Source: Ignavibacteriota bacterium
GTDB taxonomy: Bacteria; Bacteroidota; Ignavibacteria; Ignavibacteriales; Melioribacteraceae
Length of the DNA: 64,000 bases
Direction: 5' to 3'
Assembly (NCBI GenBank): GCA_002746605.1
Contig: PDPT01000037.1
Coordinates: 62,001-126,000, forward strand
Position numbers and translations under genes: made by a program. Within the stretch, counting starts at the first letter, position 1. Each line of letters opens with the position of its first letter. Under the pieces are notes generated by a model. It saw nothing but the letters and a program-made list of their open reading frames with translations, did not search any database and had not been told where the DNA came from. This document shows positions 39,681-42,792 of this stretch, in pieces.

Positions 39681-40232
39681 TTAAATCATTTCGCTCAACA
39701 ATTCTTTTCTTGGTTTTGGAATAACAACTTTGTTAACTAAAAGACCTTTTTCGGCAATAAGGTTTGCTCCCGAATCAACTGCAGATTGAACAGCTGCAAC
39801 TTCTCCGGTTAGAGTGCAGAATGCTTTTCCGCCAAGAGCCATTGCAAGCCTTATCTCAATAATTCTAACTGAAGCAGCTTTTACTGCTGCATCAGCTCCT
39901 TCAATTAAAGATGCTACCGAAAAGGATTCAATAATTCCGAGTGCTTCCAATTCAGTAACTCCCGAATGACCGGATAATGCAGGAAAAATATCTTTATGCA
40001 CATTAGGGATTACAAATGTATCAATTACTGCAAAATCAGTCTGACTTGCAGCATTCTCAACAGCCGAAGTAACAGCCGCAACATTTCCTCCAATCAAAAC
40101 CATATATTTTCCTGAACAAATAGTTCGTGAAAGAATCAATTCCACTTCTGATGTTTTTAACATAATATCTGCTGCCTGCATTCCTGCAGCAATACTTGTT
40201 AATTCAATTAATCCCAAAGAATTCATTTCCAT
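39681..40232 (-). CDS. Tandem-BMC-domain (BMC-T) microcompartment shell protein, PduT-like
   Basis: Two BMC domains (SLGLIELTSIAAGMQAADIMLKTSEVELILSRTICSGKYMVLIGG and EALGIIESFSVASLIEGADAAVKAASVRIIEIRLAMALGGKAFCTLTG); Cys39 in TICSGK corresponds to PduT Fe-S Cys. Confidence 0.93.
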   Translation of the reverse strand: MEMNSLGLIELTSIAAGMQAADIMLKTSEVELILSRTICSGKYMVLIGGNVAAVTSAVENAASQTDFAVIDTFVIPNVHKDIFPALSGHSGVTELEALGIIESFSVASLIEGADAAVKAASVRIIEIRLAMALGGKAFCTLTGEVAAVQSAVDSGANLIAEKGLLVNKVVIPKPRKELLSEMI

Positions 40233-40246
40233 AATTAATACCTTTA

Positions 40247-41557
40247 CTACTTCTCGATTATTATAAAATCATTATTAACGTCTGTAACACTACCTGATAT
40301 TGGAGCATGAATTTTTGCTCCCAATTTTCCTGTTTCAACATCACCGATTAAATCACCCTTTTCAATTCTGCTATTCTTATTTACAACAGAAATTGCAGGA
40401 GCACCAACATGTTGCTTTAGATAAATTTTTACATAATTTGGTTCATCAAAATCATCTCGGTAAGGAGTGGATGTTTCATATTGTTCAACTTTTAATCTTT
40501 TCATCAGTTGTTTTATAGGAACTCTTCTACCTTCTTTTATCGGATGAACTTTTAACGGTTTTGTCTGTTCAAACTTAATTGAGTTTTCTCTTAAATAATT
40601 TTTTCCTTGATCGCAGGCTTCACGGGGATATAAGTCTTCGGGACACGCATAAAGCGAACAAAGTCCGCACGAACAACAAAGATCTGCATACTTGTTCCAA
40701 ACTTCCTTACCAGATGTTGAAAACTCAAGAGAACGCATAACTTTATGTGGCTGTACATCATAGCCAAGTAAGTAGCGCGGGCAAAATTCTGTACAATAAC
40801 TACATTGATCACAGGCAGATTTACCTATTCTGTTCATACTAGTCAGTTGCCTATTCATCCGCTGTACTAAATAATGCTCCTGCGGTAAGATAATAAGACC
40901 GGCTGTTGCCTTTGTTACAACTTCATTTAAATCTAAAGTTAATTTTCCCATCATAAGTCCGCTTACAAAAACAGCAAAATCCTTTGGAATTGCTCCACCA
41001 ACAAAATTGATAATATCTTTAAAACTTGTTCCAATAGGAACGAAAAAAGAACCTGGATTTCTTACTGCTCCAGTAACAGAAATAAATTTTTGTGTAACGG
41101 GAATATCTTGATTTGCATTAAAAACATTATAAAAAGTTTCTACATTGTTTACGACACAACCGACATTAAGAGGTAAACCTTTAGGCGGAATCAATCTTTT
41201 GGTTGCGTGATAAACTAATTCATACTCATCACCCGAAGGATAAAAATCTCCAAGCAAACTTAGTTCAATATTTTCATTCAAAAAAGGTTCAATGGCAGAA
41301 ATTGCACATGAATTTTTTTCTTTTATTCCAAAATATCCTTTTTTAGCAGAAACAGCATTAAACATCAACTCCATGCCTTTTACAATTTCTTCAGGGTGAT
41401 TCACCATAATTTCAAAATCTTTATGAATAAGGGGTTCGCACTCAGCTCCATTTGCAAGAATAAATTCAACATTAGACTTAGCTTTTATGTGAGTAGGGAA
41501 ACCTCCACCTCCTGCACCAACTACCCCTGCATCAAAGATTTTTTCGGGAAAACCCAT
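40247..41557 (-). CDS. PduS-like flavo-Fe/S electron transfer protein (RnfC-related)
   Basis: GVVGAGGGGFPTHIKAK, ECEPLIHKD, CDQCSYCTEFCP and CCSCGLCSLYACP cluster motifs, C-terminal biotinyl/lipoyl-like barrel. Confidence 0.92.
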   Translation of the reverse strand: MGFPEKIFDAGVVGAGGGGFPTHIKAKSNVEFILANGAECEPLIHKDFEIMVNHPEEIVKGMELMFNAVSAKKGYFGIKEKNSCAISAIEPFLNENIELSLLGDFYPSGDEYELVYHATKRLIPPKGLPLNVGCVVNNVETFYNVFNANQDIPVTQKFISVTGAVRNPGSFFVPIGTSFKDIINFVGGAIPKDFAVFVSGLMMGKLTLDLNEVVTKATAGLIILPQEHYLVQRMNRQLTSMNRIGKSACDQCSYCTEFCPRYLLGYDVQPHKVMRSLEFSTSGKEVWNKYADLCCSCGLCSLYACPEDLYPREACDQGKNYLRENSIKFEQTKPLKVHPIKEGRRVPIKQLMKRLKVEQYETSTPYRDDFDEPNYVKIYLKQHVGAPAISVVNKNSRIEKGDLIGDVETGKLGAKIHAPISGSVTDVNNDFIIIEK

Positions 41558-41559
41558 AG

Positions 41560-42792
41560 TTAATTCCTCTTAATTACAACAACAGTAGTATCATCTTGAT
41601 ATTTGCTATTTGAAGTAGAGAAATTTTGGACATCTTGTATTATTTCGGCAGCAATTTGTTTAGGAGTTTTATGGGCATTCTTCCTAATTACTTCGCTTAA
41701 CCTTTTCTCTTCATAAAATTGATAATTTTCATTAGCTGCATCGGTAACTCCGTCAGAGAAAATTACAAGTACATCTCCCGATTCAAAATTTATACTATCA
41801 GTAACATATCTTGAATTGGGAGCAGGCCCAAGCAAAGGACCTGTTGGTTCTAAAAGTGAAAAAGTCTGATTTTTTTGACTAAAAAACAAAGGTGGATTAT
41901 GTCCGGCATTTGCATAAAGAAATAATCCTTTTTTATCATCAGAAAGCTCACCATAAAAAAGGGTAGAAAACCTATCATCACTGAAGATTTTATTCACCAA
42001 GTTATTTAGTCTGAACATCATGGGTGAAATTTTCATTTGAAAAGAACCGGACATTCTAATTGCACCTGAAATATACATAGCTTCAGCCGAGGCACTTAAT
42101 CCCTTAGAAGCGGCATCACCCAATACAATTCCAAGTCGTTCTTCATCTTCACCAATTTTGATGTAATCGTAAAAATCACCTCCAACAATTTGTGCAGGAA
42201 TTGTAATCCCGAAAATATCATATTTCTCAAATTTATATTCATGCTCAGGTAAAATACTTCTTTGAAGTTGTCTTGCTTTATCAATATCTTCAATTAAATT
42301 TTCTCTGGAAGAAGAAACTCTTCGTTCTTTTATTTTTGAAGTTAGAACAGTCGCAATAATATTAAGTTTATATCTTAGCTCTTCGCGTAATTCATCACTA
42401 TTCAAAGAAAGCAAATATTCATAATACATTTTTCCAGCAACTTTTATTTTAGAACCTATGCCCGAAGCAGAATATTTAAATATGCCTTTTTTAATAAGTT
42501 CTTGATTTGTTTCGTTTGCTAAAATAGTTCTATATTTTGAAACAACAGCAAGTATAGGATTATCTTTAAGAGTAAGTTCAAAATCTTTATGTATTTTACT
42601 TACTTTTCCCGTTTGATAAACAAGTTTATAAGATTTTCTTTCAACATTTAATTTCCAAATTCTGCCTCCGGTAATTTCAAACTTAGAATTCTCCACCAGT
42701 TGTTTTAAAATATCGTGAAGTAAATCTTGCTCCGTGTCAAAATGTTTGGATGCCAAAGCATCAATGGTTTTATATAGTTTTATTTGTTCCAT
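41560..42792 (-). CDS. SpoIIE/RsbU-type PP2C serine phosphatase with N-terminal sensor-like region
   Basis: ARQLQRSILPEHEYKFEKYDIFGITIPAQIVGGDFYDYI...LGDAASKGLSASAEAMY...DVLVIFSDGVTDAAN. Confidence 0.93.
   Translation of the reverse strand: MEQIKLYKTIDALASKHFDTEQDLLHDILKQLVENSKFEITGGRIWKLNVERKSYKLVYQTGKVSKIHKDFELTLKDNPILAVVSKYRTILANETNQELIKKGIFKYSASGIGSKIKVAGKMYYEYLLSLNSDELREELRYKLNIIATVLTSKIKERRVSSSRENLIEDIDKARQLQRSILPEHEYKFEKYDIFGITIPAQIVGGDFYDYIKIGEDEERLGIVLGDAASKGLSASAEAMYISGAIRMSGSFQMKISPMMFRLNNLVNKIFSDDRFSTLFYGELSDDKKGLFLYANAGHNPPLFFSQKNQTFSLLEPTGPLLGPAPNSRYVTDSINFESGDVLVIFSDGVTDAANENYQFYEEKRLSEVIRKNAHKTPKQIAAEIIQDVQNFSTSNSKYQDDTTVVVIKRN

Follow-up and report, generated by a model that had tools for sequence, protein, structure and literature searches.

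A PduS- and PduT-like gene pair in an Ignavibacteriota genome as the probable redox part of a dispersed FRAG-type microcompartment

In a 64,000-nucleotide stretch of contig PDPT01000037.1 from an Ignavibacteriota bacterium (the whole stretch is called the window here, and positions are counted from its first letter), three minus-strand genes encode a SpoIIE/RsbU-type PP2C phosphatase with a GAF-like N-terminal domain (41560..42792, 410 aa, PF07228), a PduS-like flavo-iron-sulfur protein (40247..41557, 436 aa; Complex1_51K, SLBB, Fer4 dicluster, and RnfC barrel domains), and a tandem bacterial microcompartment (BMC) shell protein, BMC-T, of the PduT kind (39681..40232, 183 aa, Pfam BMC twice). 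Open reading frames and Pfam domains agree with the three genes that a preliminary description of this DNA had placed there, and the proteins on either side are recognizable as AsnS and PurD, as it had also stated. Since the gaps between the genes are only 2 and 14 bases, the trio is operon-like. Within the window, we found no further BMC-H, BMC-T, BMC-P, DeoC, RpiB, or acylating aldehyde dehydrogenase gene. We propose, with a probability of about 0.7, that PduS and BMC-T are the redox part of one dispersed FRAG-type microcompartment, with DeoC, RpiB, and a EutE-type aldehyde dehydrogenase as its cargo.

The two Pfam BMC domains of the shell protein reach 1.8e-44 in all. Its best NCBIfam match is TIGR02526 (eut_PduT) at 128.7 bits, and because this lies under the curated cut-off of 250.3, the protein is filed as PduT-like and not as a PduT equivalog. 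The closest solved structures by sequence are those of PduT (3nwg, 3pac, and 3n79), and the predicted model (mean predicted local distance difference test score, pLDDT, of 92.1) gives template modeling (TM) scores of 0.89-0.92 against the same structures, with 0.92 to 3pac, as compared to about 0.64-0.74 against the Haliangium BMC-T. Cys39 takes the place of the cluster-binding PduT residue Cys38 in the alignment and is kept in all 77 aligned BMC-T rows that have a residue at that position. The PduT-like assignment made earlier therefore holds in sequence, fold, and the conserved Fe-S cysteine, and the alignment gives the protein a predicted pore [4Fe-4S] site at Cys39. The PduS-like protein matches Complex1_51K, SLBB, Fer4_17, and RnfC_N in Pfam, and its best solved relative is RnfC (7zc6). 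Its eight Fe-S cysteines (Cys 249/252/255/259 and 294/297/300/305) are invariant in 68 of 68 sequences.

A search of the genome (2.43 Mb in 84 contigs, at 88% completeness) for BMC-H, BMC-P, and aldehyde dehydrogenase genes located BMC-H, BMC-P, and a EutE-type aldehyde dehydrogenase at other places. Two BMC-H genes lie on contig C61, the second of which is extended at its C-terminus; three BMC-P genes are present, two of them on contig C80 directly downstream of deoB and one on contig C78. The pair had been described as encoded apart from a main BMC locus. It does stand apart from the other BMC genes, but there is no main locus, as every shell gene found is dispersed.

DeoC, RpiB, and the EutE-type aldehyde dehydrogenase are single-copy enzymes with BMC-type extensions. 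The genome has two DeoC-family genes, of which the copy on contig C64 is a TIGR00126 deoxyribose-phosphate aldolase (DERA) with an N-terminal extension of ~65 residues starting MNESKIDRIVNQVLTEKA; matches to solved DERAs start at residue 59 or later, mostly at 64-75, so that the extension lies outside them. Among four aldehyde dehydrogenases, the copy on contig C11 is EutE-type (3k9d, 6e-150) and scores 614.9 bits against TIGR02518, just under the cut-off of 620.1. Its C-terminal tail consists of conserved helices alternating with variable linkers, a helix standing last, and the sequence finishes with GISESEIERIIREFNS. The RpiB on contig C9 has an N-terminal domain that matches TIGR02536 ("eut_hyp," a Eut family; E 3.9e-5). 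The earlier statement that an enzymatic core is lacking is thus correct for the window but not for the genome, where these tagged enzymes are encoded elsewhere.

The relatives of this genome place the organism among the Melioribacteraceae/Ignavibacteriales, and we surveyed 80 genomes of the family. The standard set across them is four BMC domains and three BMC-P, and the set of shell genes and tagged enzymes is near-constant. The extension is present in 30 of 30 DeoC loci and 30 of 30 aldehyde dehydrogenase loci read (our own included), which are not a random sample because they are the best matches to our own tagged queries; in the whole match table, which is less selected, DeoC matches begin at query residue 5 or before in about 70 of the 80 genomes. 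The family RpiBs read also carry the N-terminal domain. PduS stands ahead of BMC-T in 77 of 80 related loci, the remaining 3 ending at contig edges, and the full SpoIIE-PduS-BMC-T order is found in 44 of the 80. As this order recurs across relatives, the arrangement is not due to chance; asnS and purD were seen as conserved flanks of the trio in none of the 80. Dispersal extends to the single-contig relatives G061 and G050, so the layout is common to the family and not a rearrangement split unique to one strain. In G061, a phage-like gene block lies between the BMC-H pair and the ymdB-folD-deoC region (L162, 9277-18176).

BMC-P is missing from six genomes of at least 90% completeness, namely G001-G005 (one genus, g2) and G036 (g13). 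In these six, the listed matches to the PduS region are RnfC-/NuoF-like paralogues, 27-34% identical, with no PduS orthologue among them; no BMC-T is among the matches listed, no EutE-type aldehyde dehydrogenase was found, and no RpiB was found except an untailed 153-aa protein in G005. Their DeoC matches start at residue 42 or later. G001 and G036 keep the order folD-deoC-small ORF-trmH-aroA at the DeoC locus, where the extension is missing in G001 and replaced by a short, diverged N-terminus in G036. A Fisher test of 50/51 versus 0/6, with counts taken by hand from the match tables, gives p = 2e-7, a value that is descriptive only, since related genomes are treated as independent and the losses number two at most. 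Some parts are also missing from incomplete assemblies other than these six.

G001, G003, G005, and G002 (L190, L191, L192, and L193), genomes with no other recognized shell genes, each have one divergent BMC-H-domain protein with a long linker, encoded between yqgF and a YbbR-like gene; its C-terminal part matches that of our own second BMC-H, and the protein may now serve a different purpose. G036 has two diverged BMC-H and no BMC-P (L174 and L173), and its DeoC N-terminus, MNKQEINNQINNILKEEF, is still faintly tag-like, so that it may represent a loss in progress.

These distributions also bear on the suggestion that PduS and BMC-T act as a redox trimer without a closed compartment, akin to the compartment-independent use of BMC-T raised in the preliminary description. 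The pair does occur among unrelated genes in Acidobacteria and in other Ignavibacteria, as it does here. However, BMC-H and BMC-P are present in our own and nearly all family genomes, the pair is missing in the examined genomes without BMC-P, and we noticed no high-quality family genome with the pair but without BMC-H or BMC-P, which together make a free trimer highly improbable.

In the microcompartment that we propose, a shell of two BMC-H, one BMC-T, and three BMC-P would enclose DeoC, RpiB, and the EutE-type, CoA-acylating acetaldehyde dehydrogenase, each with its BMC-type extension. Deoxyribose-5-phosphate from DNA-derived nucleosides, made available by the phosphopentomutase DeoB, would enter the shell, where DeoC would yield acetaldehyde and the dehydrogenase would convert acetaldehyde to acetyl-CoA with formation of NADH. 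That DeoB supplies the substrate is suggested by the position of its gene, which adjoins two BMC-P genes in our genome (L009, 8628-10358) and lies near BMC-P, with small genes between, in G061 and G050 (L165 and L167). PduS would then oxidize NADH and deliver electrons to the cytosol by way of the [4Fe-4S] cluster in the BMC-T pore, so that PduS/BMC-T may be the electron exit. For the known proteins, PduS is reduced in an NADH-dependent manner and the PduT cluster, with a potential of +99 mV, is suited to take the electrons (PMC6325248); the same source calls electron export through PduS/PduT hypothetical. A bolder version, which we put forward as possible and quite tentatively, is that the FRAG type might be a fully dispersed deoxyribose-phosphate metabolosome without the usual phosphotransacylase and alcohol dehydrogenase, in which the iron-sulfur gate of PduS/BMC-T would be the only way for electrons to leave the lumen and the scavenging of DNA would be coupled to cytosolic or respiratory acceptors.

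Several points weigh against the dispersed microcompartment as drawn here. PduL-type phosphotransacylase was not found in our genome, and it was found in 5 of the 80 relatives, a count that covers PduL, as no search was made for other phosphotransacetylases; with PduL absent in 75 of 80, the recycling of CoA in the lumen is unexplained. PduS/BMC-T may not be the sole outlet for NADH, as no search was made for an encapsulated alcohol dehydrogenase. The co-loss amounts to at most two independent events, and in G002-G005 the loss of the DeoC extension was judged from match start positions and not from full genes. Hydrophobic moments were considered as proof of encapsulation helices and set aside as too weak, the amphipathicity of the tags not being striking alone: our DeoC tag lies at the 85th percentile and the family mean at the 64th, while our aldehyde dehydrogenase tail lies at the 93rd.

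The last of these points favors an organelle that is built from the dispersed shell genes with a different cargo, DeoC, RpiB, and the aldehyde dehydrogenase being cytosolic and their extensions serving another purpose. In addition to the unremarkable average moment of the DeoC extension, a conserved stretch of 65 aa exceeds a minimal encapsulation helix. On the other hand, three enzymes of one pathway type are all extended, one of them matching a Eut family model; the extension or the gene is lost together with the shell; and the aldehyde dehydrogenase tail has a helix-after-linker anatomy. We therefore regard a cytosolic location of these enzymes as unlikely.

The genomes with PduL are relevant to another explanation, in which the pair is a satellite locus that gives a main BMC operon, located at another place, an optional electron outlet. 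Such loci are common among BMC systems (PMC8217296), and five relatives bear PduL together with extra BMC genes. In one of them, G050, a compact second BMC locus with a class II aldolase, an aldehyde dehydrogenase, and PduL was read as PVM-like (L168, C1:119000-131000), the sole one read among the five. Most relatives, by contrast, lack PduL and show the standard set in dispersed form, and a satellite role for the pair appears quite improbable.

FRAG microcompartments with dispersed shell genes were reported from Ignavibacteriae with their function left open in the main text of Sutter et al. 2021 (PMC8217296). There, as in our genome, shell genes lie at several places, three BMC-P are present, and most are far from known enzymes. 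The likeness was judged by dispersal and the count of three BMC-P, both found in our genome and most of the family. While the main text of that source names no signature enzyme for FRAG, the pair of PduS and BMC-T can be assigned to it here along with three tagged enzymes. No published function for FRAG in Ignavibacteria was found in a literature search that reached a minority of subscription journals and no bioRxiv preprints. The dispersed FRAG type itself is already published; what our results suggest as new is a candidate function for a microcompartment class listed without a role.

With its tagged enzymes encoded at a distance, FRAG looks like a scattered sugar-phosphate metabolosome. Sugar phosphate utilization (SPU) metabolosomes share with our system a DeoC-type aldolase (PF01791), RpiB (PF02502), and acetaldehyde dehydrogenase; DeoC and RpiB are associated with the shell here by tag and co-loss, not by adjacency. 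SPU has a compact main locus joining shell genes and enzymes, whereas our genes are dispersed and no PduL was found, and because of this dispersal we call the system SPU-like in content and not an SPU locus. The pair resembles the PduS/PduT pair of PDU/GRM systems (PMC6325248, PMC2982820) in gene adjacency, domains, conserved Fe-S cysteines, and the PduT fold. Unlike that pair, it has no adjacent diol dehydratase, glycyl radical enzyme, or B12 gene and accompanies an aldolase pathway. The HO microcompartment of Haliangium has a main locus and a BMC-T that is a more distant fold match to ours. For HO, PMC8217296 notes a DeoC-family gene that lies at a distance and whose N-terminal extension is encapsulation-like, so remote, possibly tagged cargo has a precedent. 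Through its tagged, distantly encoded enzymes, one FRAG-like system found across a family thus gains a specific substrate that can be tested, and the proposed electron export by PduS/PduT can be tested here without adjacent diol-dehydratase or glycyl-radical chemistry. The co-loss pattern is also a general way to seek the cargo of dispersed organelles.

The phosphatase has a different history from the pair beside it. In its predicted model, the PP2C domain matches RsbU of Rv1364c, and the GAF-like domain is assigned by a weak match. G002, G003, and G036 (L178, L179, and L181) have a SpoIIE orthologue, 54-58% identical, whose next gene encodes a thrA-like aspartokinase; neither PduS nor BMC-T lies between the two. 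In several relatives with the PduS-BMC-T pair, the same aspartokinase gene comes after BMC-T. Since the thrA-like gene follows either SpoIIE or BMC-T, the pair can be gained or lost with SpoIIE retained. A role for SpoIIE as BMC regulator was considered and rejected as the leading idea, as the orthologue persists in genomes that lack PduS and BMC-T, and its inclusion in the redox module by the preliminary description is probably wrong for the same reason. SpoIIE is probably a conserved neighbor and not an organelle component; its transcription is likely shared with the pair, and it may have a regulatory link to it.

Pairs of PduS and BMC-T also occur outside the family. Desulfuromusa and a related metagenome-assembled genome (L076, L088, and L089) have ethanolamine-type operons with the pair inside a full BMC operon, and the BMC-T of these pairs is 70-73% identical to that of the window (L076 was read, L088 and L089 were assigned by gene order). 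Acidobacteria (L085-L087 and L092-L096) have the pair in loci without any other recognized BMC gene, so the dispersal of PduS-BMC-T may extend beyond Ignavibacteria.
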